Of a stretch of 64,000 nt of DNA, positions 4,423-58,083 are shown in pieces; the first letter of the stretch is position 1, and every line of letters starts with the position of its first letter. The position numbers and the translations under genes were made by a program. The DNA comes from an uncultured Altererythrobacter sp. (GTDB taxonomy: Bacteria > Pseudomonadota > Alphaproteobacteria > Sphingomonadales > Sphingomonadaceae), in contig CAJXNC010000001.1 in assembly GCA_913056125.1 (NCBI GenBank), positions 62,001 through 126,000 of the forward strand, in the 5' to 3' direction. The notes under the pieces were generated by a model. The model was not told where the DNA came from. It saw nothing but the letters and a program-made list of their open reading frames with translations, and ran no database searches.

Positions 4423-4528
4423 TAGAGCCACCTTCGGACGGGAGATGTCCAGATGAAGGGCACGATCCATGGTTGCCCGCGCAGCGACGCTCGTCCATCC
4501 TCCGTCTGAAGTTAGTGGGGAGAGGGGA

Positions 4529-5452
4529 ATGCTTAAGCGAAGGCGGGCCTTGACGGGCTTGGTGTTGGGACTGGTCCTGTCTTGTCTGGCAGGCGTGCTG
4601 GTTTCGGCGCCCGCGATCGCACAGGATGCGGACCATTATCGTGGTGGCTGGCGCACCGATGCGGGCGATCGCCATGTCTACGAGTTCGTGATCCGCGGCA
4701 CCGAGGTGACCGGCATCTATTGCACCTTTTGTGCTGACGGGACCACGCTGGCGCCGATCCACGGTAGCTTCGATGCGGGCGATGGGATTGCCTACACCGT
4801 GCGTCACCTGAATCTCGATGGATCGCTGGCGTCGACCGATACGCTGACAGCCCGCCTGGTGGACGGTGCGCTCCACGTCTCAGGCACAAGAGGCGCAGAT
4901 GGCGCAGCGATAGAGCATGTGGCGATCAAGGATCCGCGCGGCCCCACGCCCGCACCCTATCCGCAAGCGGTCCTGCCGCCCGATGCGCCGCCCGTTCCTG
5001 TGTTGCAGGGAGGCTTTGGCGGCGGTGGAGGCGGGTCTCCCGCCCCCTATGTCGCGCCGGGCGAATGGAAGGAATTGACGGCAGATGACGTGGTCGGCGT
5101 CTGGCTCGGCTTCGGCACCGGGATGGACAAGCAGTATTTCCTCATCCGCAAGGATGGGGACCGCCTGTTCGGCCTCGCCTGCGGGCGCTGCGACAATCCC
5201 TATACGTTCGGCGCACTGGAAAACTTCGTCATCGAGGGCGATGTGCTGACATTCGACATCGTGCACCAGGATTGGGGCGAGGGGACGCGGCTGCCTTTCA
5301 CACGCCACGTATCGGCGCAGATCGGCATGAACGAGATGCATATGGATGCGCGGCGCGACGATGCACCCGATCGCCCCGGTATCGTGGCCTCGCTGGTCGG
5401 TCCCGTCGCGATCGAGGCGACTGCTGGCAATGTGGTGGTCGACAAGGAGTAG
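4529..5452 (+). CDS. exported protein with two CxxC repeats, function unknown
   Basis: 307 aa, start at 4529 after GGGAGAGGGGA. Signal peptide to about residue 31 (APAIA-Q). The mature part has two similar halves: about residues 39-120 with CTFC at 65-68, and about 189-285 with CGRC at 218-221. A Pro/Gly-rich linker separates them (about 138-175). Each half starts with a GxW and beta-rich strands, so an internal duplication is likely. The paired CxxC sites could hold a metal or form disulfides in the periplasm. I do not recognise the family. It directly precedes the CEMIP-like pair with 173 bp between, but lacks their shared leader, so a functional link is only suggested. Confidence 0.7.
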   Translation: MLKRRRALTGLVLGLVLSCLAGVLVSAPAIAQDADHYRGGWRTDAGDRHVYEFVIRGTEVTGIYCTFCADGTTLAPIHGSFDAGDGIAYTVRHLNLDGSLASTDTLTARLVDGALHVSGTRGADGAAIEHVAIKDPRGPTPAPYPQAVLPPDAPPVPVLQGGFGGGGGGSPAPYVAPGEWKELTADDVVGVWLGFGTGMDKQYFLIRKDGDRLFGLACGRCDNPYTFGALENFVIEGDVLTFDIVHQDWGEGTRLPFTRHVSAQIGMNEMHMDARRDDAPDRPGIVASLVGPVAIEATAGNVVVDKE

Positions 5453-5625: not shown

Positions 5626-8124
5626 ATGCGCAAGCATCCAAATCTGTATCTTTTCGCGTCGGTCATTCCGGCAAGTCTCATGCTCGCTTCGGGCGCTGCG
5701 GCGCAGTCGCTCTGGTCCGATGCCTCGACCTGGCCTTCGGGTGAGGTTCCCGGCGAAGGCGACGAAGTCACCATCACCCGCGACATGGACGTGGTGCTCG
5801 ATGTCGATGCTCCGGGCCTGCGCAGCCTGACCATCCAGGGCAAGCTCGCCTTTTCGGACGAGCGTGACATCAGCCTCGAAAGCGAGTGGATCTATGTCCC
5901 CGGCGGCGAGCTGACGATCGGCACCGAGGCGAACCCGTACCAGCACAATGCCAGCATCACGCTGACCGACAATGTGCAGGGTGAAGACATCAACACGATG
6001 GGCGACCGCGGCATCATGCTGATGCAGGGCACGCTCAACATGCACGGCACCACCGACCACACCTGGACCAAGCTTGCGGCCACTGCCGAAAAGGGTGCGA
6101 CCAGCATTACTGTGCTTGACGCTTCGGGCTGGGAAGCAGGCGACGAGATCGTCCTCGCATCGACCGACTTCAATCCGCGCCAGGCCGAGCGCCGGACGCT
6201 TACGGCGGTCAACGGCAACACGCTGAGCTTTGCCGAGCCGCTCGAATACATGCACTTTGGCGAGATCACTTTCGGCGTCGACGAGCGTGGCGAAGTCGGC
6301 ATGCTCACCCGCAACATCAAGGTGCAGGCGTCCGACGACAACCTTGAAACCTATTTTGGCGGCCACATCATGGCGATGTCCGGCTCCGAAATGTATGTCG
6401 ACAGCGTCGAGCTTTCGCGCATGGGCCAGCACCTGACGCTGGCGCGTTACCCGATCCACTTCCACGTTTTGGGCGAGGGCGAAGGCCAGTATATTCGCAA
6501 CGCCGCGATCCACGACACGTTCAATCGCTGTGTGACGATGCACGGCACCAACAATCTGCTGGTGGAAAACAACGTCACCTTCAACACGGTCGGCCACTGC
6601 TTCTTCATGGAAGACGGGATCGAACAGGGTAACCAGATCGTCCGCAATCTCGGCATCCAGACCAAGTGCCACCCGACCCTGCCTTGCGAGCCGACCAATC
6701 TCGGCATCCCGGGCGAGCGTGGCAACGGACAGCAGTCCGAACATGTCCTGCTCCCCTCGGACAATACGGTCGCGACCTACTGGATCACCAATCCGGCGAA
6801 TGACTATATCGACAATGTCGCCGCCGGCTCGGATTCGACCGGTTTCTGGATGTCGCTGCCCGAACACCCGAACGGCCAGTTCGAAGGCACGGAGATCGCC
6901 GCCAATACCTGGCCGCGCCGCATGCCGGCGGGCGAGTTCCGCGGCAATACCGCGCACTCCAATTTCGACGGCATGATGTTCGACCGCAACATCAACCAGG
7001 ACAATACGTTCGGCGTCACCGGCAGCGCGCATATCGCACGCGAAGATCCGTCGGACCCGAACAGCCCGTCGATCGAAACGCATATCGAGGACTTCACGGC
7101 CTACAAGAACCGCAATGGCGGTGTCTGGGCGCGCGGTGAAATGAATGTGTTCCGCAATCTGCGCGTGGCCGACAATGCCATCGGCTACACCCACGCTTCG
7201 GGCTCGATCGGCCGCGATCCTTTCACCTCGCGCGTGGTGGATTCGCTGTTCGTGGGTGAAAGCGACAATATCGGCAATCCGACGACCGAGGACGAGTTGG
7301 CCTATGGCCGCAGCCTGCCCAAGCATGTCGCCGACTTCCCGATCCGCGGCTATGAATATTACGACTTCCTCCATTCGGTGGAGGACAGCACCTTCATCAA
7401 CTTCGAGGATAATGACACGCGCCAGGCGGGTGCCATGTCCTACCTGCTCTATACCAGCTTCGGCATGAGCACGCTGAACGGGGTCGAGGGCCTGACCTTC
7501 GTCAATGCCAAGCCGGTCCATTTCCCCGAGGAAGTGCGCCGCTGGTCGAACGATTTCGGTGGTCGTTCCGCCTATGCCACCGCGACCATCCATGATCGCG
7601 ACGGTTCGATCACTGGCACGCCCGACAGCTATGTCGTGATCGACAACGGCATAGCGGCGTCCGACGACACCTGTGAGATCAAGCCCACCTGGGGTGCTGC
7701 CATCTGCCGCGGCGATGTCGGCCGGTTCAGCTTGGGCGGCGGTTTCGGCTTCTTCGGTCCTTCGGGAGAGCCGGTGGTCCTCAGCCGCAATGGAAGGCGC
7801 TGGGAATATACCGGCCAGGGCACGATCAGCAGCGGCGCCGAAGTGCGCGTCGATACCGGTCGTGAGAGCCTCGAGCTCTCGCTTACCGAAATGGATGCGG
7901 ATAGCTGGGTGATCTTCCAGCTGCCCGGCTTCAACTCCGCCACCGGCGGCGAAGCGGCAGACAGTATCGATGCGCTGCGTGCCTCCAGCGAGACGGCCTA
8001 TTTCCAGGCCGAGGATGCGCTGTGGGTCAAGCTGGTTGCCGATCCTGCACCTGAGGGCGAAACCGTTGGCATCCGCTCGCCGCAGGCCTCGGTCGCGGTC
8101 AGCAGGACGGGCCTTGGCGGCTAA
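5626..8124 (+). CDS. secreted CEMIP/TMEM2-like G8 and beta-helix protein, copy 1
   Basis: 832 aa. Signal peptide to about residue 26 (GAAA-Q), then a G8 domain (about 27-150) starting SLWSD and with the W-x2-G-x2-P-x2-GD pattern, then a long right-handed beta-helix. Landmarks match my memory of human CEMIP and TMEM2: RYPIHFH (about 274), RCVTMHGT, GHCFFMEDG (about 322), AAGSDSTGFW (about 400) and AHSNFDG (about 444). In animals this core binds and cleaves hyaluronan. The bacterial substrate is unknown; an extracellular polysaccharide is a reasonable guess. The C-terminus ends in a beta strand and GLGG, shared with the paralogues. It has its own leader and terminator, so it is a single-gene unit. 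Start ATG follows AGAGGAAAA. Confidence 0.85.
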   Translation: MRKHPNLYLFASVIPASLMLASGAAAQSLWSDASTWPSGEVPGEGDEVTITRDMDVVLDVDAPGLRSLTIQGKLAFSDERDISLESEWIYVPGGELTIGTEANPYQHNASITLTDNVQGEDINTMGDRGIMLMQGTLNMHGTTDHTWTKLAATAEKGATSITVLDASGWEAGDEIVLASTDFNPRQAERRTLTAVNGNTLSFAEPLEYMHFGEITFGVDERGEVGMLTRNIKVQASDDNLETYFGGHIMAMSGSEMYVDSVELSRMGQHLTLARYPIHFHVLGEGEGQYIRNAAIHDTFNRCVTMHGTNNLLVENNVTFNTVGHCFFMEDGIEQGNQIVRNLGIQTKCHPTLPCEPTNLGIPGERGNGQQSEHVLLPSDNTVATYWITNPANDYIDNVAAGSDSTGFWMSLPEHPNGQFEGTEIAANTWPRRMPAGEFRGNTAHSNFDGMMFDRNINQDNTFGVTGSAHIAREDPSDPNSPSIETHIEDFTAYKNRNGGVWARGEMNVFRNLRVADNAIGYTHASGSIGRDPFTSRVVDSLFVGESDNIGNPTTEDELAYGRSLPKHVADFPIRGYEYYDFLHSVEDSTFINFEDNDTRQAGAMSYLLYTSFGMSTLNGVEGLTFVNAKPVHFPEEVRRWSNDFGGRSAYATATIHDRDGSITGTPDSYVVIDNGIAASDDTCEIKPTWGAAICRGDVGRFSLGGGFGFFGPSGEPVVLSRNGRRWEYTGQGTISSGAEVRVDTGRESLELSLTEMDADSWVIFQLPGFNSATGGEAADSIDALRASSETAYFQAEDALWVKLVADPAPEGETVGIRSPQASVAVSRTGLGG

Positions 8125-8135
8125 TCGGACTGGAA

Positions 8136-8160
8136 CCCCCGGCGCAAGCCGGGGGCTTTC
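8136..8160 (+). terminator. intrinsic terminator after CEMIP-like copy 1
   Basis: CCCCCGGC at 8136-8143, loop GCAA, GCCGGGGG at 8148-8155, then CTTTC. It separates copies 1 and 2 into independent transcription units. Confidence 0.8.
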
Positions 8161-8200
8161 ACTTTGGCGGCGCAGATGGATCGTTCGAGGTCCGGTCCTC

Positions 8201-8264
8201 TTGGCAAATTGATCCGTCCGCTGCAAAAGTGCGGCCAAACACGGAATACGGGACGCCAAGTCCC
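8201..8264 (+). promoter_or_regulatory. shared promoter/leader element, copy 2
   Basis: TTGGCA at 8201-8206, exactly 17 bp, CAAAAG at 8224-8229, then stem GGGAC/GTCCC at 8250-8264 (loop GCCAA). The hairpin begins 49 nt after the first hexamer, against 48 in copy 1. It lies between the terminator of copy 1 and the start of copy 2. Confidence 0.6.
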
Positions 8265-8283
8265 GATTGAGGGGAAAATCGCC

Positions 8284-10827
8284 ATGCGTCTGCAGTCACG
8301 CCTGCTCTGTTTCTCGATGCTTCTTCCCGCGTCGCTTATGCTCGGCGCAGGGAGCGCGGCGGCCCAGTCGCTCTGGTCCGATCCGGCCACTTGGCCTTCG
8401 GGCGAAGTTCCGGCTGAAGGCGATGCCGTGACTATCGGTGAAGGGATGGATGTCATCCTCGATGTCAGCCCGCCCGCGCTGCGCAGCCTGACGATCAACG
8501 GCAAGCTCAGCTTTTCGGACGAGAGCGACATCGACCTTGTGACCGAGTGGATTTATGTCCCCGGCGGCGAGCTGGAGATCGGCACCCAAGCCAGCCCGCA
8601 TACGCGCCTCGCCACCATTACGCTTACCGACAATGTCCCCGGAGAGGACGTCAACACGATGGGCGATCGCGGTATCATGCTGATGCGCGGCACGCTCAAC
8701 CTGCATGGCGACCGGGAAAACAGCTGGACGAAACTCTCCGCCACCGCCGAAAAGGGTGCCACGAGCATTCAGGTGCTCGACGCCAGCGACTGGCGCGTGG
8801 GCGACGAGATCGTCCTTGCCTCGACAGACTTCAATCCGCGCCAGGCCGAGCGGCGCACCATCACTGCGGTGAATGGCAACGCGCTGAGCTTCGCCGAGCC
8901 GCTAGAATACATGCATTTCGGCGAAGTCACCTTCGGCGTGGACGAGCGCGGCGAAGTCGGCCTGCTGACCCGCAATATCCGCATCCGCGCTTCGGAAGAT
9001 GCCGATGCAAACGGCTTTGGCGGCCACATCATGGCGATGTCGGGTTCCGAAATGTATGTCGACAGCGTCGAGCTGTCCCGCATGGGACAGCACCTGACGC
9101 TCGCCCGCTATCCGATCCACTGGCACCTGATCGGCGAAGGCCAGGGCCAGTACATTCGCAATGCGGCGATCCACGATACTTACAGCCGCTGCGTGACAGT
9201 CCATGGCACGAACGACCTGCTGGTCGAAGGCAATGTCACCTTCAACACGGTCGGCCATTGCTTCTTCCTCGAGGACGGGATCGAGACGGGCAACCAGTTC
9301 GTCCGCAATCTCGGCATCCAGACCAAGTGCCACATGACCCTGCCATGTGAGCCGACAAACCTGACCCTGGACGAGCAGTCCACTGCCGGACAACGCTCGC
9401 CCAACATCCTAATCCCGTCTGACAATACGGTGTCGACCTTCTGGATCACCAATCCCGACAATCTCTACCGCGACAATGTGGCGGCAGGCTCCGACCAGAT
9501 CGGGTTCTGGATGGCCTTCCCGACTCATCCGACCGGCGCGTTCGAAGGCACGGAGATCGCCGCCCAGACATGGCCAGGCCGCACCCAGCTGCGCGGCTTC
9601 ATCGGCAATGTTGCCCATTCCAATTTCGACGGGCTGATGCTCGATCGCGGCCCCGGTCCCGACGGGACTTTCGGCATCGCCGGCCCCAACCTCATCGTTT
9701 ACAACGATCCCGCGGATACCAGCAGTGGCACGGTGGAATCGGTCGTCGCCGACGATTTCACCGCCTACAAGAACAGCAATGGTGCCATCTGGGGCCGAGG
9801 CGAATACCACCTCTACAGGAACCTCAAGCTGGCCGATAATGCGATCGGCTTTACCCATGCCTCGGGCGCACCCGGTGTCGCTCCCTATACGACGCGCGTG
9901 GTGGATTCGCTGTTCGTGGGTGAGAGCGACAATGTCGGCAATCCGACCACGCCGGCGGAGATCGCCTATGGACGCAGCCTGCCCAAGGTAGAGGCCGACT
10001 TCCCGATCCGCGGTTACGAGTATTACGACTTCCTCCACCATGTGGAGAACACCCGTTTCGTGAACTACGTGCCCAACACCACGCGCGATGCGGGCGCCTT
10101 GTCCTACCTGCTGTTCACCAGTTTCGGCATGAGCACGGAGAACACGGTCGAGGGGCTGACCTTCGAAAACGCACAGCCGGTCAGCTTCCCGCCGATCCAG
10201 CGCCGCTGGGCCTCGGATTATGGCCGCAGCGCCGCTTACAAGAGCGCCGCCTTCACCGATCTGGACGGTTCTGTCGGCGGTATTCCCGGCGCGACCATCG
10301 TCATCAATAACGGCATCGCGGCGAGCGAGGATGATTGCGAGATCAAGGCGAGCTGGAATGCGGCGATCTGCCCCGGCGATGTCGGCCGTTTCGCCATAGC
10401 CGGCAATTTCAGCGGCTTCTCTGCCGGTCCGATAGCCGAGCCGATCATCCTGCAGCGCAACGGCTTGCGCATGGAATATACCGGTGAGACCACGCTCGGC
10501 GCAGGGGCGGAGGTTCGGGTCGAGACGTCGCGCGAAAACCTGCAGGTTTCGCTTAACGAGATGGATAGCGGCTCGGCGGTCATCCTCGAATTCCCCGGCT
10601 ATGCCTCTGCCACTGGCGGTGTCGAGGCGGCCAGCATGGATGCCTTGCGCGCGGCCACGGAGACCTCCTTCTTCAGGGACGGAGATTCGCTCTGGGCCAA
10701 GCTGGTCGTCGACAATGAGGCCGGCCTCGAGATTGCGCCCGGCAGCAATGCCCCTCCCGGTTTTGCACCCCGCGCCATTCCCGTCGGGGCCTTTATCGAA
10801 GTGAGTAAGACCGGGCTGGGCGGCTAG
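8284..10827 (+). CDS. secreted CEMIP/TMEM2-like G8 and beta-helix protein, copy 2
   Basis: 847 aa from the ATG at 8284; the frame is open 40 codons further up, but that stretch contains the leader hairpin. Signal peptide to about residue 28 (GSAAA-Q), G8 domain (SLWSDPATWPSG start), beta-helix with RYPIHWH (Trp where the other copies have Phe), GHCFFLEDG, AAGSDQIGFW and AHSNFDG. The paired-cysteine segment DDCEIKASWNAAICPGD near residue 680 is shared with copy 1. A short tail insert (APPGFAPRAIP) precedes the closing VSKTGLGG. It overlaps the convergent amidohydrolase gene by four bases. It is closest in detail to copy 1, consistent with tandem duplication. Substrate unknown. Confidence 0.85.
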   Translation: MRLQSRLLCFSMLLPASLMLGAGSAAAQSLWSDPATWPSGEVPAEGDAVTIGEGMDVILDVSPPALRSLTINGKLSFSDESDIDLVTEWIYVPGGELEIGTQASPHTRLATITLTDNVPGEDVNTMGDRGIMLMRGTLNLHGDRENSWTKLSATAEKGATSIQVLDASDWRVGDEIVLASTDFNPRQAERRTITAVNGNALSFAEPLEYMHFGEVTFGVDERGEVGLLTRNIRIRASEDADANGFGGHIMAMSGSEMYVDSVELSRMGQHLTLARYPIHWHLIGEGQGQYIRNAAIHDTYSRCVTVHGTNDLLVEGNVTFNTVGHCFFLEDGIETGNQFVRNLGIQTKCHMTLPCEPTNLTLDEQSTAGQRSPNILIPSDNTVSTFWITNPDNLYRDNVAAGSDQIGFWMAFPTHPTGAFEGTEIAAQTWPGRTQLRGFIGNVAHSNFDGLMLDRGPGPDGTFGIAGPNLIVYNDPADTSSGTVESVVADDFTAYKNSNGAIWGRGEYHLYRNLKLADNAIGFTHASGAPGVAPYTTRVVDSLFVGESDNVGNPTTPAEIAYGRSLPKVEADFPIRGYEYYDFLHHVENTRFVNYVPNTTRDAGALSYLLFTSFGMSTENTVEGLTFENAQPVSFPPIQRRWASDYGRSAAYKSAAFTDLDGSVGGIPGATIVINNGIAASEDDCEIKASWNAAICPGDVGRFAIAGNFSGFSAGPIAEPIILQRNGLRMEYTGETTLGAGAEVRVETSRENLQVSLNEMDSGSAVILEFPGYASATGGVEAASMDALRAATETSFFRDGDSLWAKLVVDNEAGLEIAPGSNAPPGFAPRAIPVGAFIEVSKTGLGG

Positions 10828-14611: not shown

Positions 14612-15880
14612 ATGGCTCAGATTGTTGGCGGTTTCGCCGTTTCCCATACGCCCACCATCGCCTTCGCGCAGGATGCGGGCAAGCAGGACGACCCGGTGTG
14701 GAAGCCGATTTTCGACGGTTTCGAACCGGTCAAGAAGTGGCTGGCGGACACCAAGCCCGACGTGATCATCTACGTCTACAACGATCACATGACCTCCTTC
14801 TGGATGCGGCACTACTCGCATTTCGCCATCGGCATTGGCGAAGAATATGCGGCAGCCGACGAAGGCGGCGGACCGCGCAAGATCCCGCCGATCAAGGGCG
14901 ATCCCGATTTCGCGCAGCACCTCGCCTTCGGCATGGTCGCAGACGAGTTCGACCTGTCCTATTGGCAGGGCATGGGGCTCGACCACGGCGCATTCTCGCC
15001 GCTTTCGGTCCTGCTGCCGCATTCGGACGAGGAAGGCTGGCCGTGCAAGATCGTGCCGCTCCAGTGCGGCGTGCTCGAACTGCCGATCCCCAAGGCCAAG
15101 CGCTTCTGGGATTTCGGCCGGAGCCTGCGCCGTGCGATCCAGAACTATCCCGCCGATATCAAGGTGGCGATTGCCGGCACGGGCGGCCTCTCGCACCAGG
15201 TCCATGGCGAACGCTGCGGCTTCAACAATGTCGAGTGGGACCATGAGTTCATGGACCGCCTCGCCAACGATCCCGAAGGGCTGCTCGACATCCCCGTGGG
15301 CGAGCTGGTCAAGCTCGGCGGCATGGAAGGCGCCGAGATCGTGATGTGGATGCTGATGCGCGGCGCGCTGGCTCCCAAGGTGAACGAGCTGCATCGCAGC
15401 TTCTTCCTGCCCTCGATGACCTCGATTGCCTCGATGGTGTTCGAGGATGCGGAGGAAGACCCTTCGCCCGAGAGCAAGGAAGACTACGCCAAGCGCATCT
15501 ATTGGGATGTCGCCCCGGCGCTCGACCTCGAGGGCACCTATCCCTTCACCATCACTCGCAGCGCCAAGGCGTGGCGGATCAACAATTTCCTCCACTCGAT
15601 TGTCGAGCCGGACTTCCGCGAGCGGTTCAAGACTGATTTCGAGGCCTTGGCGGACGAATATGAGCTGACCGAGGAAGAGAAGACCATGATCCGCGATCTC
15701 GATTGGATCGGCATGATCCATTACGGCGTGATCTTCTTCAATCTGGAAAAGCTCGCCCCGGTCGTGGGCCTCGGCAATATCGACGTCTATGCGGCGATGA
15801 AGGGGATGAGCGTCCCCGAATTCCAGAAGACCCGCAATGCGGCGATCAACTACTCGGTCGAGGCGGAACCCGCCGACTGA
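14612..15880 (+). CDS. fused LigB-LigA extradiol dioxygenase, gallate dioxygenase type (copy 2)
   Basis: 422 aa, collinear with the gene at 1645. His12 and His59 are kept; one extra residue (WMRHYSHF) shifts later ligands by one: His125 in GLDHGAFSP, His195 in GLSHQVHG and the Glu of GAEIVMW. The LigA-type part has RDLDWIGMIHYG, and the tyrosines of IDVYAAMKG and AINYSV are kept. GAGGAGGGAGAG is a strong ribosome site. Two nearly full-length paralogues within 12 kb suggest different substrates or inducers; the loop around residues 270-300 differs most. No ring-cleavage follow-up genes (hydratase, aldolase, transporter) are visible nearby. Confidence 0.85.
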   Translation: MAQIVGGFAVSHTPTIAFAQDAGKQDDPVWKPIFDGFEPVKKWLADTKPDVIIYVYNDHMTSFWMRHYSHFAIGIGEEYAAADEGGGPRKIPPIKGDPDFAQHLAFGMVADEFDLSYWQGMGLDHGAFSPLSVLLPHSDEEGWPCKIVPLQCGVLELPIPKAKRFWDFGRSLRRAIQNYPADIKVAIAGTGGLSHQVHGERCGFNNVEWDHEFMDRLANDPEGLLDIPVGELVKLGGMEGAEIVMWMLMRGALAPKVNELHRSFFLPSMTSIASMVFEDAEEDPSPESKEDYAKRIYWDVAPALDLEGTYPFTITRSAKAWRINNFLHSIVEPDFRERFKTDFEALADEYELTEEEKTMIRDLDWIGMIHYGVIFFNLEKLAPVVGLGNIDVYAAMKGMSVPEFQKTRNAAINYSVEAEPAD

Positions 15881-20084: not shown

Positions 20085-20488
20085 CTTTACTGTCCTTATT
20101 GACCCTGCGGCGCAAATATCGATCTTCACGGCATCCCACGTAGCGTGGCCCCATTTCAAGAAGTTGTTCTATTTCAATCCTTCCTTTCCCTCGTTCCTTG
20201 ACAATGGTAAACACCGGGTCAACCTTACTGGTTACGTGATCTTTACGGGACGATTCGTTCTGCGGTAGGTTTTGGAACCGCCGAGTGGGGCGTAAGGTTC
20301 AGTAGGGACTACCGGATGGTGGCTTGGGGAAAATTGGGGAGACAGGGGCTTTAGCGAAATTTGATTTGCCGGAGCATTCGGCACGTCGGCCTTGGTAGCT
20401 GGGTCGTGTCATTTCTGCGCAAGATACCTCATCCATTGAGCGAGTTACGGGAAAGTGGGCCTTGGGGTCCGTGAATTTGGAGATTGAG
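20085..20488. other. 404-bp intergenic region between divergent genes
   Basis: Lies between the reverse gene ending its upstream side at 20084 and the adhesin gene at 20489. AT-richer than its surroundings in the 20160-20250 part, as expected for two divergent promoters. No reading frame with convincing codon use and no clear operator is seen. Confidence 0.4.
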
Positions 20489-22609
20489 ATGAAGAGCGTC
20501 AAATTTAGCATCATGTGCGGTACGGCATTGTCGGTCATTGCCTTTGCTGCGCCGGCCAATGCGCAGATCACGATTGGTCCCGACCCAATCGAGGTGAATG
20601 ACGGTGGTACGCCGAGCACTCCTAATGCGGGTGGCAACCTCAACACGAATGGCGAAAATATTACCATGGGTGGCGGCAATATCAGTACCCAAGGTGGTAA
20701 CATCTTCACCTCCGGCGGCGACATTGGCACTAATGGCGGCGAGCTGTTCACTGGCGGTGGCAACTTTGGCACCAATGGTGGCAATATCGACTCCTCGGGT
20801 GGTTTCATTAGCAGCGACGGTGGCTATATCAGCACCTTGGGCGGTGAGCTGCGCACGGTCGGAGGCGATCTTAGCCTGGATGGCGGTTCCATTACCGCCG
20901 CGGACACGATTGGCGGTTCCGCTGGCAGTGTAACGATCCAGTCGAACACTCTTGGCACTGCCAGCACTCTCACTGTGTCGGATACCGGCATTACGTTGCA
21001 TGGCGGCACCACTTCTACCGATGTCGTGATCGACAACAACGGTATTCTGGTGACCGATTCGACCAACGGCCAGACCTTCCAGCTGGATGATTCGGGCAAC
21101 GGCACCTTCGCCGGCAACGTCGATGCAGTTGACGTCAATGCCAGCGGCAATGTCACGGCTACCGGAGATGTGTCGGGCACGAATGGCACCTTCACCGGCA
21201 CGGTGAGCGGCGCTACCGGCAGCTTCACTACCGTTGATGCGACTACCGGCAACATCACCACGGTCAATTCGACCACCGGCAACATCACCACGGTCAATTC
21301 GACCACCGGTAACATCACCAACGTCAACTCGACCACCATCGTGAACAGCGGCAATGTCGGTACGGCAACCCTGACCACGACCGGCGATGCCAGCGTCGGC
21401 GGCGCTCTTGCTGTGACGGGTGCGACCACCACAAATGGTATCACCAACACCGGCGACATCGCTACCGACACGCTGACCACCACGGGTGACGTAAGCGTCG
21501 GCGGCGATCTCGACATGAACGGCAACGACATCAACAATGTCGGCACGATCAACGCCTCGACCGGCAATATCGGCACCGTCAACGCCGGCACGGTCAACAC
21601 CAATACCGTGAACGCGGGTGCGGTGAATGCCACCACGGCGACGATCGGCACAGTGAACGCCACGACGGTCAATTCCGACACCGGCAATTTCGGTACGGTC
21701 AATGCGACCACCGGCAACATCGCAACCGTCAATGCCGATACGGTCAACTCGACCACTGCCAACCACGGCACGGTCAATGCCGATGTCGCGAATGTCGGCG
21801 TGGTGAACTCGACCACGGTGAATGCCTCGACCGGCAATATCACTACGGTCAACTCGACCACGATCAACAACACCGGCGATGCCACGATCGGTGGTGACCT
21901 CGGTGTGACCGGCACCACGACCACCACCAACTTGGTCGCAACCGACGCCACGGTGAACAACACGCTGACCGTTGGCGGCCTCACTTCGGCGAACGGCGGC
22001 ATCGTGACGAACGGTGCATCCATCAATGCCGGTTCGGGTGCGATCTCGACCACCGGTGCAGTCAGCGCGGGCACTCTGGGTGTTACCGGCGGTGCCACGA
22101 TTGGTGCCGACCTCGCTGTGGGCGGTAACATCTCGGCCGACGGTTCGGTCTCCTCGGTCGGCGGTTTCTCGACCACCGATGGCGACATTGTCACCGTCAA
22201 TGGCGACGTTTCGGCTGGCGGTATCACGCTCGACAGCTCGACCGGTCGCGTCACCGGCGTTGCTGCCGGTGTGGACCCGACCGATGCGGTCAACCTCGGC
22301 CAGCTGAACTCGGCTGTGAGCACGCTCAACGCACGTATCGACGGTATCGAGAGCCGCGTTGTGGACCTCGAGTTCCAGAACAAGCAGGCCTTCCAGGGTA
22401 TTGCGATGGCATTCGCCCAGAATGCTGCTCCGCTTAACCTCGACAATGGTGAAGGCGGTATCGCCCTCGGTGCCGGCGTCTTCGAAGGCGAATATGCCGG
22501 TTCGTTCCGTGCCGGCTTCGTCACCGAAAGCGGCTTCGGCATTGGCGCCAATGTCGGCTTCTCCGAAGATGCCGTTGGCGGCGGCGTGGGTGCCAGCATC
22601 AAGTTCTGA
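20489..22609 (+). CDS. trimeric autotransporter adhesin (YadA anchor)
   Basis: 706 aa from the ATG at 20489 after GGAGATTGAG; signal peptide ends NAQ at about residue 25. The C-terminal 78 residues are a YadA-type beta-barrel anchor (GIAMAFAQNAAPL ... GVGASIKF), preceded near residue 600 by the neck motif DAVNLGQL and a short coiled coil (NARIDGIESRVVDLE). The passenger is unusual: first Gly-rich repeats of about seven residues (GGNIxTxGG), then many copies of TGNITTVNS/TVNATT-like units, with almost no Lys, Arg, Glu or aromatic residues. It would be exported by Sec and displayed as a trimer on the cell surface, for adhesion or aggregation. It is monocistronic, with a strong terminator after it. 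Confidence 0.9.
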   Translation: MKSVKFSIMCGTALSVIAFAAPANAQITIGPDPIEVNDGGTPSTPNAGGNLNTNGENITMGGGNISTQGGNIFTSGGDIGTNGGELFTGGGNFGTNGGNIDSSGGFISSDGGYISTLGGELRTVGGDLSLDGGSITAADTIGGSAGSVTIQSNTLGTASTLTVSDTGITLHGGTTSTDVVIDNNGILVTDSTNGQTFQLDDSGNGTFAGNVDAVDVNASGNVTATGDVSGTNGTFTGTVSGATGSFTTVDATTGNITTVNSTTGNITTVNSTTGNITNVNSTTIVNSGNVGTATLTTTGDASVGGALAVTGATTTNGITNTGDIATDTLTTTGDVSVGGDLDMNGNDINNVGTINASTGNIGTVNAGTVNTNTVNAGAVNATTATIGTVNATTVNSDTGNFGTVNATTGNIATVNADTVNSTTANHGTVNADVANVGVVNSTTVNASTGNITTVNSTTINNTGDATIGGDLGVTGTTTTTNLVATDATVNNTLTVGGLTSANGGIVTNGASINAGSGAISTTGAVSAGTLGVTGGATIGADLAVGGNISADGSVSSVGGFSTTDGDIVTVNGDVSAGGITLDSSTGRVTGVAAGVDPTDAVNLGQLNSAVSTLNARIDGIESRVVDLEFQNKQAFQGIAMAFAQNAAPLNLDNGEGGIALGAGVFEGEYAGSFRAGFVTESGFGIGANVGFSEDAVGGGVGASIKF
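21241..21330 (+). repeat. 30-bp tandem repeat, three units, in the adhesin gene
   Basis: Units at 21241, 21271 and 21301 encode TTGNITTVNS-type decapeptides. Units 1 and 2 differ at one base and unit 3 at four. Copy-number change here would keep the frame and lengthen or shorten the stalk. Confidence 0.85.
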
Positions 22610-48985: not shown

Positions 48986-51661
48986 TCAGCCGCCGAGGCC
49001 TTCCCTGCTTACTGTTATGCGGGCCTGCAGATCCGTCGGAAGGATGACCGGCCCGACCGGCGCATCGGCTACCAGCTTGACCCAGATTGTATCACCGTTG
49101 CTAAACCATGAGGTCTCGTTCGCTGTTCGCAATGCACTCATGCTGGTCGCTTCGGTTCCGGAAGCTGCACTGGTGAAGCCCGGCAGCTCGAAGATTACCC
49201 ATGAGCCTTCGTCCATCTCACTAAAACTGAGAGTAACTTCCTCTCTTTCGGTCTTCACCTCGATCTCGGTGCCGGCGCGCACAGTGCTTTGGTTGGAAGT
49301 GATCTGAAACTCTCTGCCATCCCGAACGAGCGCGATGGGCGGCTGCGGAGCACGAGGTGCGAACGTCGCGCCAGGAGTAGCCCTCTCGGCAGGAGCGGCG
49401 GGAGTGTATGGCGCATCCGGAGTGTTCGCCATGAACAAGGAGAAGCGGGCGGTCCGCGAGCTAAGATCGAGTCCGGGCGGAATTTCTCCGAGGCCTTCCG
49501 AGAGCCACAGTCGACCGATATCGCCGGTGCAGACAGAGGCGTTCCAGCTGGGACGGATCTGGCAGCTCTCGTCGGTGACGACGCTATTGTTCTCGCCGTC
49601 ATGGAGCAGGATGTGCGAATCCGGGATGCCCGTCACCGAGCCATCCAGATCGTGGATCGTTAGCGTCCGATAACCTGCCGCACCCCTGTTGTCGTTGTCG
49701 AACCGGGGCTCGATGTTCGGAAAATAGACTGGCTTGGCGTCGACGAATTCTGCGCCGCTGATGGAGCTTCTGGTGCTGACCCCGGAGCTTGAGAACAGCA
49801 GGTAGGATAGCGCGCCCGTCTTGCGCAGATCGTTGTCCTGGAAATTGACGAATGTCGTGTTCACCACCTCGTCGCGGTAATCGTAATATTCGTATCCGCG
49901 GATAGGGAAATCAGGGATCAGCGGCTTGGGCAGGCTGCGGCCATAGGCCAGCTCCTCCGCCGTGGCCGGGTTGCCGATATTGTCGGTCTCACCCACCACC
50001 AGCGAATTGATCAGTCGGGAGTTGAACGGTGAATTGCCGATGTCGCCGGAAGCTTGCGTCATGCCAATGGCATTGTCGGCGAACTTCGCATTGCTGTATA
50101 TATAAAGTTCACCCCGGCCCCAGAGACCACCGTTGCGGTTCTTGTAGCTGGTCAGGTCCTCGAAGTGCGATTCCATTGGCTCGCTGTCCAAGTCGTTCGG
50201 ATCTTCCAGCGGCAGAAAGGGGACGCCGGTCAGACCGAAGGTATTGTCCCGGTAGAAATTCCGATCGAACATGAAGCCATCGAAGTTGGAATGTGCCGTG
50301 TTGCCCCTGAATGTGCGCAACGGCGTGCGGCGCGGCCATGTCTCGGCGGCGATCTCCGTATCCAGGAAGGCGCCGTTGGGATGCTCCGGTACGGACAGCC
50401 AGAAACCGGTCGAGTCCGACCCTGCTGCAACATTATCGATGTAGCTATTGTCGGGGTTTGTGATCCAGAAGGACGCAACCGTATTGTCCGAAGGCAACAG
50501 CGCGTTCCCGCCAAAGAAGCTGGCCTCCCGGGCGGACATACCTTCTGGCACCACATAGTTTCGCTCTGCGTTGGCAGCGAGGTTCGTGGGCAAGCAGTCC
50601 AGCGTCGGATGGCACTTAGTCTGGATGGCGAGGTTCCGGACGAATTCGTTCCCCGTCTCGATCCCGTCTTCCATGAAGAAGCAATGGCCCACCGTGTTGA
50701 AGGTCACATTGCCTTCGATCCTGAGGTCGTTCGTGCCATGCACCGTCACGCAGCGGTTGAACGTGTCGTGGATCGAGGTGTTGCGGACATATTGCCCTGC
50801 GCCTTCGCCCAGAATGTGGAAATGGATCGGATAGCGCGCGAGCGTCAGGTGCTGGCCCATGCGGTTGAGCTCGACACCGTCGATATACAATTCAGAGCCG
50901 CCCATCGCCATGATGTGGCCGCCGAAATAGCTTTCCGCGGCGTCTTCGGAGGCCTGGATGCGGATATTGCGGGTCAGCATGCCGACCTCGCCGCGTTCAT
51001 CGACGCCGAAAGTGATTTCGCCGAAATGCATATATTGCAGCGGCTCTACGAAACTGATCGTGTTGCCGCTCACTGAAGTGATGGTGCGGCGCTCCGCCTG
51101 GCGCGGATTGTAGTCGGTCGAGGCGAGGACGATCTCGTCTCCCGCTTGCCATCCGCTCGCGTCCAGCACGGAAATGCTGGTCGAGCCACGCTCTGCGGTA
51201 GCAGAAAGCTTGGTCCAGCTATGCTCGCGATTGCCATGCATGTTCAGAGTGCCGCCCATCAGCATGATGCCCCGGTCACCCATCGTATTGATGTCCTCGC
51301 CCGGCACATTGTCGGTCAGCGTAATCGAGGCATTGTGCTGGTGGGGATTGGCTTCGGTGCCGATGGTCAGCGAACCGCCCGGAACATAGATCCACTCGCT
51401 CTCCAGCGCGATGTCGCGCTCATCGGAGAAGGTCAGGCTGCCCTGCACGGTCAGGCTGCGCAGGCCCGGCGCGTCCATATCGAGCACGACATCCATGTCG
51501 CGGGTGATTTCGACCGCATCGCCTTCGCCCGGCACCTCGCCCGAAGGCCAGGTGTTCGGATCGGACCACATCGACTGGGCATGCGCGGCATTCACGGCAC
51601 CTAGCAGGCAGGTTGCTGGAAGGAGCGAGGAGGCGAGGAGCAGGCGAGGCTGCATGCGCAT
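48986..51661 (-). CDS. secreted CEMIP/TMEM2-like G8 and beta-helix protein, copy 3
   Basis: 891 aa from the ATG at 51661 (GGGAG nine bases before). Signal peptide ends AAHA-Q, then SMWSDPNTWPSGEVP opens the G8 domain. Beta-helix landmarks RYPIHFHILGEG, RCVTVHGT, GHCFFMEDG, AAGSDSTGFW and AHSNFDG are kept. Compared with copies 1 and 2 it has an extra loop after CLPTNLAANAER and a Pro/Ala-rich insert (APYTPAAPAERATPGA) before the last beta module, and the cysteine segment reads DESCQIRPSWNASVCTGD. It ends VSREGLGG. It is closest to copy 4, which lies directly upstream on the same strand. Likely extracellular or cell-surface carbohydrate-active; substrate unknown. Confidence 0.85.
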   Translation of the reverse strand: MRMQPRLLLASSLLPATCLLGAVNAAHAQSMWSDPNTWPSGEVPGEGDAVEITRDMDVVLDMDAPGLRSLTVQGSLTFSDERDIALESEWIYVPGGSLTIGTEANPHQHNASITLTDNVPGEDINTMGDRGIMLMGGTLNMHGNREHSWTKLSATAERGSTSISVLDASGWQAGDEIVLASTDYNPRQAERRTITSVSGNTISFVEPLQYMHFGEITFGVDERGEVGMLTRNIRIQASEDAAESYFGGHIMAMGGSELYIDGVELNRMGQHLTLARYPIHFHILGEGAGQYVRNTSIHDTFNRCVTVHGTNDLRIEGNVTFNTVGHCFFMEDGIETGNEFVRNLAIQTKCHPTLDCLPTNLAANAERNYVVPEGMSAREASFFGGNALLPSDNTVASFWITNPDNSYIDNVAAGSDSTGFWLSVPEHPNGAFLDTEIAAETWPRRTPLRTFRGNTAHSNFDGFMFDRNFYRDNTFGLTGVPFLPLEDPNDLDSEPMESHFEDLTSYKNRNGGLWGRGELYIYSNAKFADNAIGMTQASGDIGNSPFNSRLINSLVVGETDNIGNPATAEELAYGRSLPKPLIPDFPIRGYEYYDYRDEVVNTTFVNFQDNDLRKTGALSYLLFSSSGVSTRSSISGAEFVDAKPVYFPNIEPRFDNDNRGAAGYRTLTIHDLDGSVTGIPDSHILLHDGENNSVVTDESCQIRPSWNASVCTGDIGRLWLSEGLGEIPPGLDLSSRTARFSLFMANTPDAPYTPAAPAERATPGATFAPRAPQPPIALVRDGREFQITSNQSTVRAGTEIEVKTEREEVTLSFSEMDEGSWVIFELPGFTSAASGTEATSMSALRTANETSWFSNGDTIWVKLVADAPVGPVILPTDLQARITVSREGLGG

Positions 51662-51815: not shown

Positions 51816-54476
51816 TCAGCTGCCAAGCCCTTCCAGGTTGACCGTAATGCTGGCCTGGAGATCGAGGCCACGGACCGGAACGATGGGGGGATCGGTCACC
51901 ACCAGCTTGACCCAAAGGCCGTCCTCATCCCGGAACCAGGAGGTCTCCTCAGCTGCGCGCAGGGCCTCCATGCTGCCCTGTTCCGTCCCGGAAGCTGCGC
52001 TGGCGAAGCCCGGCAGTTCGAATATCACCCATGAGTGCTGGTCCATTTCGGCAATGCTTAGCGTGACCTCCTGCCTTTCAGTCTTCACCTCCATCTCCGT
52101 GCCCGACTTCACATTGCTCAAATTGCCGGTGATGCGGAACTCGGTGCCATTACGGATCAGCGCGATGGGCGGCTCCGGAGCGGGTGGCGGTGGAGGCGGC
52201 GGAGGCGGAGCCGCGGAAGTAGCCCGAGGTGGTGCAATGGCCGCAGCGACCAGAGCGATCCTTCGGGTCCGCGTGCTGATATCGAGATTGCCCGGGAGTT
52301 CTCCCCTATCGGTCGAGAGGTTTAACCGACCGATATCGCCGGTGCAGACCGAGGCGTTCCAGCTGGGACGGATCTGGCAGCTCTCGTCGGTGACGACGCT
52401 GTTGTTCTCGCCATCGTGGAGCAAGACATGGGCATCGGGGATGCCCGTCACCGAACCGTCGATATCGTAGATCGACAGCGTGCGGTAACCCGCGCCGCCG
52501 CGGTTATCATTGTCGAAGCGGGGATCGATATTCGGGAAGTAGACCGGCTTGGCGTTGACGAAACGCGCACCTTCGACAGAGCTTGCGGTGGAGACGCCGG
52601 AGCTGGTGTACAGCAGCCATGACAGCGCACCGGTCTTGCGCAGCTCGTTGTCCTGGTAATTCACGAAAGTCGGGTTCACGATCTCGTCGCGGTAATCATA
52701 GAACTCGTAGCCGCGGATCGGGAAATCGGGGATCAGGGGCTTGGGCAGGCTGCGACCGTATGCGATCTCCTCCGGCGTCGTGGGATTGCCCACATTGTCG
52801 CTCTCGCCCACGAACAACGAATCCTGCACGCGCGAGGTAAACTCTTCGGTGCCGAAATCACCCGATGCCTGCGTCATGCCGATGGCATTGTCGGCGAGCC
52901 TGATATTGCGGAACAGGAATAGCTCCCCGCGGCCCCAGACGCCGCCATTGCGGTTCTTGTAGCTGGTCAGGTCGTCGAAATGCGTTTCGACCGCCTCGCT
53001 CTCCATGTCGGCAGGGTTTGACAGCGCCAGGAGCGCGCTGCCGCCCAGGGCGAAGGTGTTGTCTTCATTGATGTTCCGGTCGAACATGAAGCCATCGAAG
53101 TTGGAATGCGCCACATTGCCCCTGAAGGCGCGCAGCGGCGTCAGGCGCGGCCAGGTATTGGCGGCAATTTCGGTGCCGAGAAACTGACCGTTGGGGTGCA
53201 TCGGCAGAGACAACCAGAATCCGGTGGAATCGGACCCCGCCGCCACATTGTCGATGTAGCTATTGTCCGGATTGGTGATCCAGAAGGACGCGGCCGTATT
53301 GTCTGAAGGCAGCAGCGTGTTCCCGCCGTGAAAGCTGGCTTGGCTGTAGGCCGCGCGATTTTCCTGCCTCAGGGGCCTCTCCGCGTTGGCACCCAGATCG
53401 GTGGGCACGCAGTCCAATGTCGGATGGCACTTGGTCTGGATCGCCAGATTACGGATGAACTCGTTTCCGTGCTCGATCCCGTCTTCCATGAAGAAGCAGT
53501 GGCCGACCGTGTTGAAGGTGACGTTGTTCTCGACCCGGAGGTTGTTCGTCCCGTGCACCGTCACGCAGCGGTTGAAGGTGTCGTGGATAGCGGCGTTGCG
53601 GACATACATGCCCGCGCCTTCGTCGAGCATGTGGAAATGGATCGGGTAGCGCGCCAGCGTCAGATGCTGGCCCATGCGGTTGAGCTCGACGCTGTCGACG
53701 AACATGCGCGAGCCGCCCATCGCCATGATGTGCCCGCCGAAATAACTCTCTGCTGCGTCTTCCGATGCTTGGATGACAATGTTGCGGGTCAGCATCCCGA
53801 CCTCGCCGCGCTCATCGACGCCGAAGGTTATCTCGCCGAAATGCATATAATCGAGCGGCTCGGCGAAACTGATCCTGTTGTCGCTTACGCTGGTGATGGT
53901 GCGCCGTTCGGCCTGGCGCGGATTATAGTCGGTCGAGGCGAGCACGATCTCATCGCCCACGTGCCATTCCGACGCATCGAGGACCTCGATGCTGGTCGCG
54001 CCGCGCTCGGCAGTGGCAGCAAGCTTGGTCCAGCTGTGGGTGCTCGTGCCGTGCAGGTTGAGCGTTCCGCGCAGCAATATGATGCCCCGATCGCCCATGG
54101 TATTAATGTCCTCGCCCTCTACATTATCGGTGAGGGTGATAGTCGCGTCGTGCTGGTAGGGGTTCGCCTCGGTGCCGATTTGCAACTTGCCGCCCGGCAC
54201 GTAAATCCACTCGCTTTCGAGGCTGATGTCACGCTCGTCCGAAAAGCTTAGCTTTCCCTGGATAGTGAGGCTACGCAGGCCCGGCGCATCCTGATCGAGC
54301 ACCACGTCCATGTCGGGAGTGATCTCCACTGCGTCGCCCGCTGCAGGCACCTGTCCGCCCGGCCAGGTCGCCGGATCTGACCAGAGCGATTGTGCATTGG
54401 CGGCAGAGCCCGCTCCCAACAGGGCTGCGATCGACAAGAGCAGCGTGGTTCTGAGCGAGCGGGACTGCAAGTGCAC
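51816..54476 (-). CDS. secreted CEMIP/TMEM2-like G8 and beta-helix protein, copy 4
   Basis: 886 aa from a GTG at 54476, chosen because GAAGAGGAAA precedes it, it begins a good signal peptide (to SAANA-Q), and it stands the same distance from the leader as in the other copies; the frame is open a further 49 codons through the leader. G8 start SLWSDPATWPGGQVP, then RYPIHFHMLDEG, RCVTVHGT, GHCFFMEDG, AAGSDSTGFW and AHSNFDG. A run of nine prolines sits in the linker before the last module. Ends VNLEGLGS. DESCQIRPSWNASVCTGD is shared word for word with copy 3. Confidence 0.85.
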   Translation of the reverse strand: MHLQSRSLRTTLLLSIAALLGAGSAANAQSLWSDPATWPGGQVPAAGDAVEITPDMDVVLDQDAPGLRSLTIQGKLSFSDERDISLESEWIYVPGGKLQIGTEANPYQHDATITLTDNVEGEDINTMGDRGIILLRGTLNLHGTSTHSWTKLAATAERGATSIEVLDASEWHVGDEIVLASTDYNPRQAERRTITSVSDNRISFAEPLDYMHFGEITFGVDERGEVGMLTRNIVIQASEDAAESYFGGHIMAMGGSRMFVDSVELNRMGQHLTLARYPIHFHMLDEGAGMYVRNAAIHDTFNRCVTVHGTNNLRVENNVTFNTVGHCFFMEDGIEHGNEFIRNLAIQTKCHPTLDCVPTDLGANAERPLRQENRAAYSQASFHGGNTLLPSDNTAASFWITNPDNSYIDNVAAGSDSTGFWLSLPMHPNGQFLGTEIAANTWPRLTPLRAFRGNVAHSNFDGFMFDRNINEDNTFALGGSALLALSNPADMESEAVETHFDDLTSYKNRNGGVWGRGELFLFRNIRLADNAIGMTQASGDFGTEEFTSRVQDSLFVGESDNVGNPTTPEEIAYGRSLPKPLIPDFPIRGYEFYDYRDEIVNPTFVNYQDNELRKTGALSWLLYTSSGVSTASSVEGARFVNAKPVYFPNIDPRFDNDNRGGAGYRTLSIYDIDGSVTGIPDAHVLLHDGENNSVVTDESCQIRPSWNASVCTGDIGRLNLSTDRGELPGNLDISTRTRRIALVAAAIAPPRATSAAPPPPPPPPPAPEPPIALIRNGTEFRITGNLSNVKSGTEMEVKTERQEVTLSIAEMDQHSWVIFELPGFASAASGTEQGSMEALRAAEETSWFRDEDGLWVKLVVTDPPIVPVRGLDLQASITVNLEGLGS

Positions 54477-54802: not shown

Positions 54803-55294
54803 CTAGAGCGAAGTCGGGTTTGGCAGTCCGTCATATACTGACTCTGCATCGAAGGCGCACTCATGCTCGGTCCGTGTCAGACGTGCAGGCGCGGAAGCAG
54901 GCAATGCAGCAAGATCGATCTCACGGTAGAAGCACGACCGGAAGCCGACGTGACAACTGCCCGGTCCATCGAGCCGGACCACGAGGATGATCGCATCCTG
55001 ATCGTCGTCGACGAGAATTCGTTCGACGGTTTGAGTGAACCCGCTGTGTTCTCCCTTGTGCCAAAGTGCCTCTCGGCTGCGCGACCAGAAGTGCGCATGC
55101 CCCGTCCTCAATGTCAGTTCCAATGCCTCGGTATTCATATAGCCGAGCATGAGAATCGAATTATCCTCGATGTTCGTCACCACCGCAGGAAGTAGTCCGG
55201 CAGCGTCAAAGCGCGGGGCGAAATCGTTTCCCAGTTCTACCTGCTCAACGCTTTGGCGAGCGGCAAACAAATAGGGCGGAGAGGTGTCTGTCAT
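54803..55294 (-). CDS. hisI: phosphoribosyl-AMP cyclohydrolase (HisI) with one zinc ligand replaced
   Basis: 163 aa from the ATG at 55294 after GAGGAAATTCCC. HisI signature MLGYMNTEALELTLRTGHAHFWSRSREALWHKG (in parts: HAHFWSRSREALWHKG). Usual enzymes hold zinc with three cysteines, the first in a DCDxD motif. Here that motif reads DDDQD (Asp97 for Cys), while Cys114 (SCHVG) and Cys121 (SCFY) remain. It lies downstream of the HupE-type gene with a Zur-like box upstream, away from the main his operon, which has no hisI. Either it is a low-zinc paralogue, with a normal hisI outside the window, or the only copy. Confidence 0.88.
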   Translation of the reverse strand: MTDTSPPYLFAARQSVEQVELGNDFAPRFDAAGLLPAVVTNIEDNSILMLGYMNTEALELTLRTGHAHFWSRSREALWHKGEHSGFTQTVERILVDDDQDAIILVVRLDGPGSCHVGFRSCFYREIDLAALPASAPARLTRTEHECAFDAESVYDGLPNPTSL

Positions 55295-55395
55295 GGGAAT
55301 TTCCTCAGCTTCGTACAAATTCAATGCGCCCAAATTGTATTGGCATCCCGCGTATCTGGCTGTCGCGTGCTCCTGGCTCCATGATGTCCTTTGCA

Positions 55396-56595: not shown

Positions 56596-56664
56596 AAAGA
56601 GTTTGTCCTTTCTGGGCTTGGGCTTGATCGCACGCAGCCTTGCAAGCGCACGCGATCCCTGTCA

Positions 56665-56681
56665 ATGATATGATATATTAT
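56665..56681. promoter_or_regulatory. Zur-like operator, copy 2 (hupE-type / zigA)
   Basis: ATGATATGATATATTAT, matching the perfect palindrome at 43541 in 15 of 17 bases. It lies between the two divergent genes, 70 bp from one start and 29 bp from the other. Confidence 0.6.
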
Positions 56682-56709
56682 TAATTCTAGTTGCGAGAGG
56701 GCCCCCTCA

Positions 56710-57933: not shown

Positions 57934-57950
57934 TTCCGCCCGTACCGGGA

Positions 57951-58082: not shown

Positions 58083-58083
58083 C

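Follow-up and report, generated by a model that had tools for sequence, protein, structure and literature searches.

What would relatives of the animal proteins CEMIP and TMEM2 be doing in a bacterium? The question is raised by a tandem pair of genes, W1 and W2, in a 64,000-nucleotide stretch from an uncultured Altererythrobacter sp. (assembly GCA_913056125.1, contig CAJXNC010000001.1, positions 62,001 to 126,000; this whole stretch is the window referred to below). A preliminary description, made from the letters alone, had called the gene products homologues of the hyaluronidases CEMIP and TMEM2 and had proposed an extracellular carbohydrate-degrading family of unknown substrate. Here we report that the proteins are members of the CEMIP/TMEM2 family lacking the GG domains of the animal proteins, and that they retain a strip of eight core residues in common with human TMEM2 that may form an active site.

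Kinship with human TMEM2

The N-termini of W1 and W2, as read from the sequence, are charged and continue into a hydrophobic run with A-x-A-Q at its end; they resemble signal peptides, and both proteins are probably exported. The mechanical open reading frame (ORF) of W2 starts further up than the ATG adopted here, at a TTG at 8164 (Table 1). In Pfam searches G8 (PF10162) scored 107.7 bits in W1 and 101.0 bits in W2 (cut-off 22.9), and CEMIP_beta-hel (PF24606) scored 274.9 and 277.7 bits (cut-off 27.3). The strings RYPIHFH or RYPIHWH, RCVT-HGT, GHCFF-EDG, AAGS--xGFW and AHSN occur in this order in both proteins. ORFs, domain matches and ordered landmarks agree with the earlier picture of two proteins of 832 and 847 residues, each with a signal-peptide-like start, a G8 domain and a beta-helix. 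NCBIfam offered no name for either at E 1.

When W1 was compared with all PDB sequences using phmmer, human TMEM2 (8c6i_A) was matched at E 1.1e-94, and the next PDB sequence, at E 0.099, was a chance match. W1 and TMEM2 are 34% identical over 575 columns, and the best of the set reaches 36% over 591 columns. At the aligned places TMEM2 reads RYPVHFH, RCITVHGT, GHCFFLEDG, AAGSQDAGIW and VHSN, placing the landmarks in register with the human protein, as had been proposed.

The fold gave the same answer. An AlphaFold2 model of W1, built from 42 relatives (set A2), had a mean predicted local distance difference test (pLDDT) of 82.4 and a predicted template modelling score (pTM) of 0.84. Foldseek searched against the PDB with this model found TMEM2 at E 1.4e-44, with a template modelling (TM) score of 0.80 by query length and of 0.53 by target length, the latter being lower because TMEM2 is longer than W1. 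The other 49 matches listed were phage depolymerases, tailspikes, polysaccharide lyases, glycosidases, epimerases and one adhesin, all with TM ≤0.25 by query length, and a fold search of BFVD returned weak beta-helix matches with TM ≤0.35 by query length. Because TMEM2 stands alone by both E value and TM score, chance and generic beta-helix likeness, the outcome that the preliminary description had named as fatal to its reading, are excluded. The bacterial proteins are homologues of the CEMIP/TMEM2 family; the name given to them earlier is correct as a statement of ancestry, by sequence, domain models and fold, and as a statement of activity it is unproven.

TMEM2 (CEMIP2, PDB 8c6i) resembles W1 in its G8 start and its continuous right-handed beta-helix; the core motifs are common to both, as are the eight residues of the strip described below. 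Unlike the bacterial proteins, it is membrane-anchored and contains two lectin-like (GG) domains plus a small beta-sandwich insert, according to the description of its structure (PMC10206443). CEMIP (KIAA1199, HYBID), which was compared solely through the Pfam models G8 and CEMIP_beta-hel that match the bacterial proteins, is secreted, as W1 and W2 probably are; it differs in having two GG domains, in which R187 is required, and reportedly needs cells and clathrin (PMC6888145, PMC11764312). G8 and CEMIP_beta-hel were found in 42/42 A2 members and, apart from these, the only Pfam family at E 0.001 was Beta_helix (3/42). Phage capsule depolymerases, PL6 lyases and AlgG/AlgE epimerases belong like W1 to the right-handed beta-helix class, but at 6-12% identity and with the low TM scores given above for the PDB matches listed and for BFVD. 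No close fold likeness was found to PL6 (chondroitinase B-type, Ca-dependent lyases), the PL6 structures listed having TM ≤0.14 by query length, and TMEM2 itself keeps only one of the two PL6 Ca-binding acids according to Niu et al. (PMC10206443).

The homology as such is already implied by the Pfam CEMIP model, and plasmid copies are annotated as 'G8 domain-containing protein'. Among open-licence papers we recognised none that deals with relatives of CEMIP/TMEM2 in bacteria or with mutated core-strip residues. Three features seem to be new: the minimal architecture without GG domains, a set of 12 genes in one genome, and a candidate active site in common with human TMEM2.

A conserved strip in the beta-helix core and a missing GG domain

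Residue conservation was followed in a close set of 79 proteins (mean pairwise identity 64%, with W1-W4 and the paralogues of the same genome included) and in 11 distant rows. In the first pick of the close set a protein had to show two out of three motifs, and strip residues or H324 form part of two of these motifs; when the set was picked again without a motif filter, as frames of at least 780 residues matching W1 at E 1e-20, there were again 79 proteins and the counts were the same. The distant rows are nine plasmid proteins (Vitreoscilla, Planctomyces, Salipiger, three Leisingera, Antarctobacter, S2214 and Ruegeria) and two proteins from viral contigs (L111, L112); a first distant set had held four of the nine plasmid matches and was later extended to all nine and both viral contigs. 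For Leisingera NJS201 (H9) the strip residues were counted from the second of two annotated pieces.

Eight residues, H247, R274, Y275, H278, H280, H306, E329 and E333 in W1 numbering, are identical in TMEM2 and in 11/11 distant rows. With an offset of +82 inferred between chain and human TMEM2 numbering, their counterparts would be H519, R546, Y547, H550, H552, H585, E608 and E612; the offset agrees with chain Cys472, which then corresponds to the published Cys554. Within the close set H247, H306, E329 and E333 are present in 79/79 proteins, and R274, Y275, H278 and H280 in 78/79, the remaining row being a gap. There are 223 columns at least 97% constant in the 79 close proteins, and 111 of these, the strip included, hold the same residue in TMEM2; the few among the 111 that fall outside the 572-residue TMEM2 stretch (e.g. 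D59) are unreliable. Histidine stands out in W1 165-460: TMEM2, Vitreoscilla and Planctomyces all retain 6 of the 12 His there, but only 34 of all 296 residues (one-sided p 0.0008, with 19 residue types tested). TMEM2, Vitreoscilla, Planctomyces and the two viral rows also have R301 and H324. W386 and N397 differ in two and three of the 11 distant rows, respectively, and are not invariant, and D516, which was aligned differently in two alignments, was left off the invariant list.

Four consecutive turns of the W1 model begin with the predicted strands 246-250, 277-280, 303-306 and 326-328, and therefore H247, H278/H280, H306 and E329 should stack on one sheet, in a register read off the strand list of the model.

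A domain that matters for activity in the animal proteins is missing from the bacterial ones. In the alignment with 8c6i, W1 residues 155 to 164 bridge TMEM2 chain residues 166 to 340, and no GG-domain Pfam family was found in the 42 A2 members at E 0.001. The activity-killing changes R265, D273 and D286 of TMEM2 lie within its GG/lectin-like domain (PMC10206443, PMC10276149), and according to Sato et al. the GG domain also contains R187 of CEMIP as well as H248 and A303 of mouse TMEM2, a pair lost together (PMC10276149). Mouse/human chimeras in the same report indicate that a stretch behind the GG domain is required besides the GG domain itself (PMC10276149). The bacterial proteins thus lack the residues known to matter in animals along with the whole domain. 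The doubt attached to the preliminary description, that residues needed in the animal proteins might have been lost, is therefore half borne out: all of the activity-killing point changes found sit in a domain that these proteins lack.

Reports on the animal proteins differ. Narita et al. describe depolymerisation of hyaluronan by purified TMEM2 (PMC10474455), whereas Niu et al. report a TMEM2 ectodomain that neither cleaves nor binds hyaluronan (PMC10206443). Cells expressing CEMIP are described as cutting hyaluronan in the manner of an endo-beta-N-acetylglucosaminidase (PMC6888145). According to a 2026 review, lytic or non-canonical mechanisms may be involved, and microbial hyaluronidases lack homology to the mammalian ones (PMC13113925); in the available part of another review CEMIP is named in the reference list alone (PMC11669647). 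The TMEM2 crystal structure was determined at 3.5 A (PMC10206443), a resolution at which we think a bound metal could go unnoticed.

Proposed function and competing explanations

On balance, we think it probable that these stripped-down members of the CEMIP/TMEM2 family are secreted and act as polysaccharide-cleaving enzymes; catalysis, the catalytic residues and the kind of substrate are what we infer. Each would be an exported right-handed beta-helix that opens with a G8 stretch and carries no GG/lectin-like domains. A polysaccharide chain would be bound along the beta-helix and cut at the strip, which would run on one sheet over four successive turns: H247; H278 and H280 (with R274 and Y275); H306; and E329 with E333. 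The substrate would most likely be not hyaluronan but an acidic extracellular polysaccharide, uronate-containing or sulfated, made by bacteria or algae, and the many diverged paralogues per genome could cover a range of related specificities. The arrangement would be compatible with hydrolysis, with elimination and with a metal-assisted route. A lead for elimination is offered by PL31, a family of parallel beta-helix lyases for which a review table gives His/Tyr, Arg as the catalytic set (PMC12254123). Binding and cutting of polysaccharide appear most likely because of the stack of His, Arg, Tyr and Glu together with homology to a reported depolymerase (PMC10474455). The earlier proposal of an extracellular carbohydrate-degrading family thus remains the best inference, with probable export and a proposed degrading activity.

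Several points weigh against this proposal. To our knowledge, no bacterial member of the family has a known activity. Within the core, E262 is not invariant because it varies in both sets (A in 3/11 distant rows, A or G in 4/79 close proteins), and R301 and H324 are replaced by W and A in 7/7 Rhodobacterales rows. The strip blocks of the W1 model have pLDDT values of 72-92. Around the Erythrobacteraceae-type genes, 688 nearby proteins from 78 loci were clustered and 119/126 immediate neighbours of 90-900 residues were scanned with Pfam, omitting five G8-gene fragments, one duplicate and one 90-residue ORF; there was no constant carbohydrate neighbour, with no Pfam family in more than six of the 119 adjacent proteins and a sulfatase in two. 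The Rhodobacterales relatives, whose gene clusters are discussed below, are distant (27-29% identity over 29-38% of W1), and their seven loci are not all independent because three are Leisingera strains. The strip residues do not figure among the mutants of TMEM2 or CEMIP in the available parts of the reports cited. Finally, the status of TMEM2 as an enzyme is disputed (PMC10206443 and PMC10276149 versus PMC10474455), and a 2025 review speaks of a 'major controversy' over it and the CEMIP/TMEM2 active site (PMC12254123).

Gene neighbourhoods gave partial clues to the substrate. An operon or locus logic for the Erythrobacteraceae-type genes was rejected on the Pfam counts above. Their largest neighbour cluster, present at 12/78 loci, is TonB-dependent receptor-like by eye; TonB-dependent receptors are common in this bacterial group, and for this reason nothing was drawn from it. 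The Rhodobacterales plasmid relatives (H4-H10) lie in or beside exopolysaccharide gene clusters in 7/7 cases, with glycosyltransferases or polysaccharide export genes at 7/7, GH16 at 6/7 and a sulfotransferase at 5/7. The Vitreoscilla and Planctomyces plasmid copies have cytochrome c maturation and metal efflux genes as neighbours, and no exopolysaccharide genes. The Rhodobacterales clusters support 'polysaccharide' for the family at large and say little about the exact substrate here. For hyaluronan, the GH88 profile had no match in the genome from which the window comes and rang in three control genomes, and KduI had no match there and rang in six, five of them above cut-off; a search for hyaluronan lyase PL8 gave no match here or in any control genome, and is not used as evidence. 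The lack of a GG domain, the missing GH88 and KduI matches and the presence of 12 paralogues make it unlikely that hyaluronan serves as food.

Of the alternatives, the one that survives best, although we judge it rather unlikely, is that these are non-enzymatic surface or matrix proteins, whose beta-helix would bind polysaccharide in adhesion or in a biofilm matrix and whose invariant residues would hold the fold or a structural metal. The inactive, non-binding TMEM2 ectodomain of Niu et al. (PMC10206443) would fit this, as would numerous paralogues if they were adhesins, the lack of constant catabolic neighbours of the Erythrobacteraceae-type genes, the lectin-type Laminin_G_3 domain on the Salipiger relative, and the presence of the pneumococcal adhesin PfbA among the weak fold matches. 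The activity of purified TMEM2 reported by Narita et al. (PMC10474455) argues the other way, and so does the strip: an Arg, a Tyr, four His and two Glu kept from a planctomycete to human would exceed what a scaffold usually needs.

Less probable still is modification of polysaccharide without net degradation, either as C-5 epimerases of the AlgE/AlgG kind or by trimming of the cell's own exopolysaccharide during export. Sets of Arg, Tyr and His serve uronate lyases and epimerases alike. The weaker fold matches include AlgG and AlgE6, but with TM scores by query length of just 0.14-0.21. The Rhodobacterales relatives sit inside exopolysaccharide clusters, and one is annotated with a type I secretion target domain, whereas the copies in the window's own genome are not beside recognisable exopolysaccharide genes, as judged partly by eye. 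The His/Tyr, Arg row for PL31 in the review table (PMC12254123) would suit modification as well, but the activity reported for the animal proteins is depolymerisation. That W1 and its relatives are true hyaluronidases, or hyaluronan/chondroitin lyases degrading animal matrix, is highly improbable: the identity to TMEM2 and the cutting of hyaluronan by CEMIP-expressing cells (PMC6888145) speak for it, but the GG domain, site of the animal loss-of-function point changes, is absent, the usual route for unsaturated uronate products (GH88, KduI) is not matched in the genome, 12 copies would be odd for one simple substrate, and the Rhodobacterales relatives are located in biosynthesis clusters.

If polysaccharide cleavage is the function, a wider and more tentative possibility follows the strip into the animal proteins. 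In bacterial and human members alike, the strip may be the real, hitherto unassigned active site of the CEMIP/TMEM2 family, perhaps a metal site formed by four His and two Glu and either unoccupied or not visible at 3.5 A. The GG domain would then only feed substrate, the bacterial proteins would be the minimal enzyme, and animals and Erythrobacteraceae would share one lineage through an old transfer. Since the active site of CEMIP and TMEM2 is in dispute, bacterial relatives without a GG domain provide a simple model in which few point mutants would be needed, and which is possibly easier to express in E. coli. Eight residues are kept from planctomycete and phage to human, and the family points to an uncharacterised class of bacterial polysaccharide enzymes, while its phylogenetic placement raises the possibility of gene transfer between bacteria and animals.

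Paralogues, ancestry and genomic setting

The window holds a second tandem pair, W3 and W4 (Table 1), with PF10162 above cut-off in both. A profile search found 12 PF24606 matches in the 3.01 Mb genome: ten whole genes and two matches that run off contig ends (the end of C1 and the start of C9). Two further contig ends hold only the starts of G8 genes, and the simplest reading of these figures is a set of 12 genes. W1 shares 61-73% identity with the nine other whole proteins. Among 11 whole or partial genes of this genome, eight pairs share identical runs of 45-62 bases at 68-75% overall identity. Gene conversion among the paralogues is not claimed, as such runs may reflect constraint on such conserved proteins. 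The end of G000:C13 and the start of G000:C2 share 77 identical bases inside G8 gene starts; because both contigs stop at this stretch, the assembly breaks at paralogue repeats. Several named genomes likewise have G8 copies at contig ends. Copies at L072 and L099 7953-10556 and at G079:C4 829377-833226 are split into two frames or two profile matches, which suggests broken genes or sequencing errors.

Table 1. Coordinates of the G8 genes in the window and on two viral contigs
Feature	Sequence	Coordinates	Strand	Remarks
W1	window	5626..8124	+	ATG start; 832 residues; G8 and CEMIP-type beta-helix; probably secreted
W2	window	8284..10827	+	ATG at 8284; 847 residues; tandem paralogue, 68% identical to W1
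W3	window	48986..51661	-	fourth paralogue in window, directly downstream of W4; ORF to 51871
W4	window	51816..54476	-	third paralogue in window; GTG at 54476, picked for signal-peptide-like start; ORF to 54623
L111 G8 protein	IMGVR_UViG_3300038306_000202	5962-8679	+	905 residues; CEMIP-like; all eight strip residues
L112 G8-type protein	IMGVR_UViG_3300036791_001569	5950-7389	+	cut by contig end; eight strip residues

The CEMIP-type gene is accessory and patchily distributed, and a genome can have as many as 12 matches. In samples that overlap and that each include the window's own genome, PF24606 was found in 10/149 genomes of the family (5/96 genera), 6/296 of the order and 3/398 of the phylum, and G8 in 4/398 genomes of the phylum. 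At genus level, three of the eight genomes listed (again with the window's own) carry PF24606 and five do not. A scan of the named collection with two clade-specific peptide patterns gave 76 loci, mostly in Altererythrobacter, Croceibacterium, Alteraurantiacibacter, Erythrobacter and unclassified alphaproteobacterial metagenome-assembled genomes (MAGs); Novosphingobium, Sphingobium and a few MAGs labelled Caulobacterales, beta or gamma were also represented, with binning errors possible. Deinobacterium chartae, a control line of the profile search, has the CEMIP-type family too.

Scored with the TMEM2 core, the best close-set protein reached 297 bits, Vitreoscilla 116 and Planctomyces 107. In a tree of 25 rows and 299 columns, with five other relatives and TMEM2 as the sole animal sequence, TMEM2 was grouped with the close set (97/90) on a branch of 4.0, and the alternative joining the close set with Vitreoscilla without TMEM2 was rejected by the approximately unbiased test (p-AU 0.0014). 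An old transfer between bacteria and animals may be suspected from this placement; because of the branch of 4.0 and the thin sampling it stays a lead, not proof, with direction and date undecided.

Beyond the close set, the plasmid proteins of Vitreoscilla filiformis and Planctomyces sp. SH-PL62 are 28-29% identical to W1 and share with it G8 and CEMIP_beta-hel above cut-off, the eight strip residues, R301 and H324. The Rhodobacterales plasmid proteins (Leisingera, Salipiger, Antarctobacter, Ruegeria and strain S2214) resemble W1 in a G8-region match and in the eight strip residues (7/7); they differ in overall identity (21-25%, two aligned), in their C-terminal parts and in the W/A pair at R301/H324. 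Erythrobacteraceae-type G8 genes can also reside on a plasmid: at L103 (Croceibacterium atlanticum plasmid NZ_CP011453.2, 11985-22580) two of them flank two DUF6152 genes, a TonB-dependent receptor and a MarR regulator. A search of a phage collection found no relative at E 0.001. The viral contig L111 encodes a terminase large subunit and a portal-like protein, and its G8 protein had no PHROGs match at E 0.001; the G8-type gene of L112 lies downstream of a major tail protein (phrog_584).

Some further genes of the window can be mentioned. Directly upstream of W1, on the same strand, is a gene for an exported-looking protein of 327 residues (4469-5452), for which Pfam returned nothing at E 0.01. 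The first G8 pair stands between two genes that we take to be of the LigB-like extradiol dioxygenase type (1582-2907 and 14612-15880). A protein of 715 residues built of TGNITTVNSTTGNI-type repeats (20462-22609) has by eye the look of a surface protein. Upstream of the second G8 pair (54803-59226), the same strand encodes a phosphoribosyl-AMP cyclohydrolase and a membrane protein of the HupE/UreJ type, after which come two CobW-type genes in divergent orientation; this may be a metal-limitation setting. A sulfatase gene (PF00884, 125 bits; 59342-60937) lies ~5 kb from the second G8 pair.

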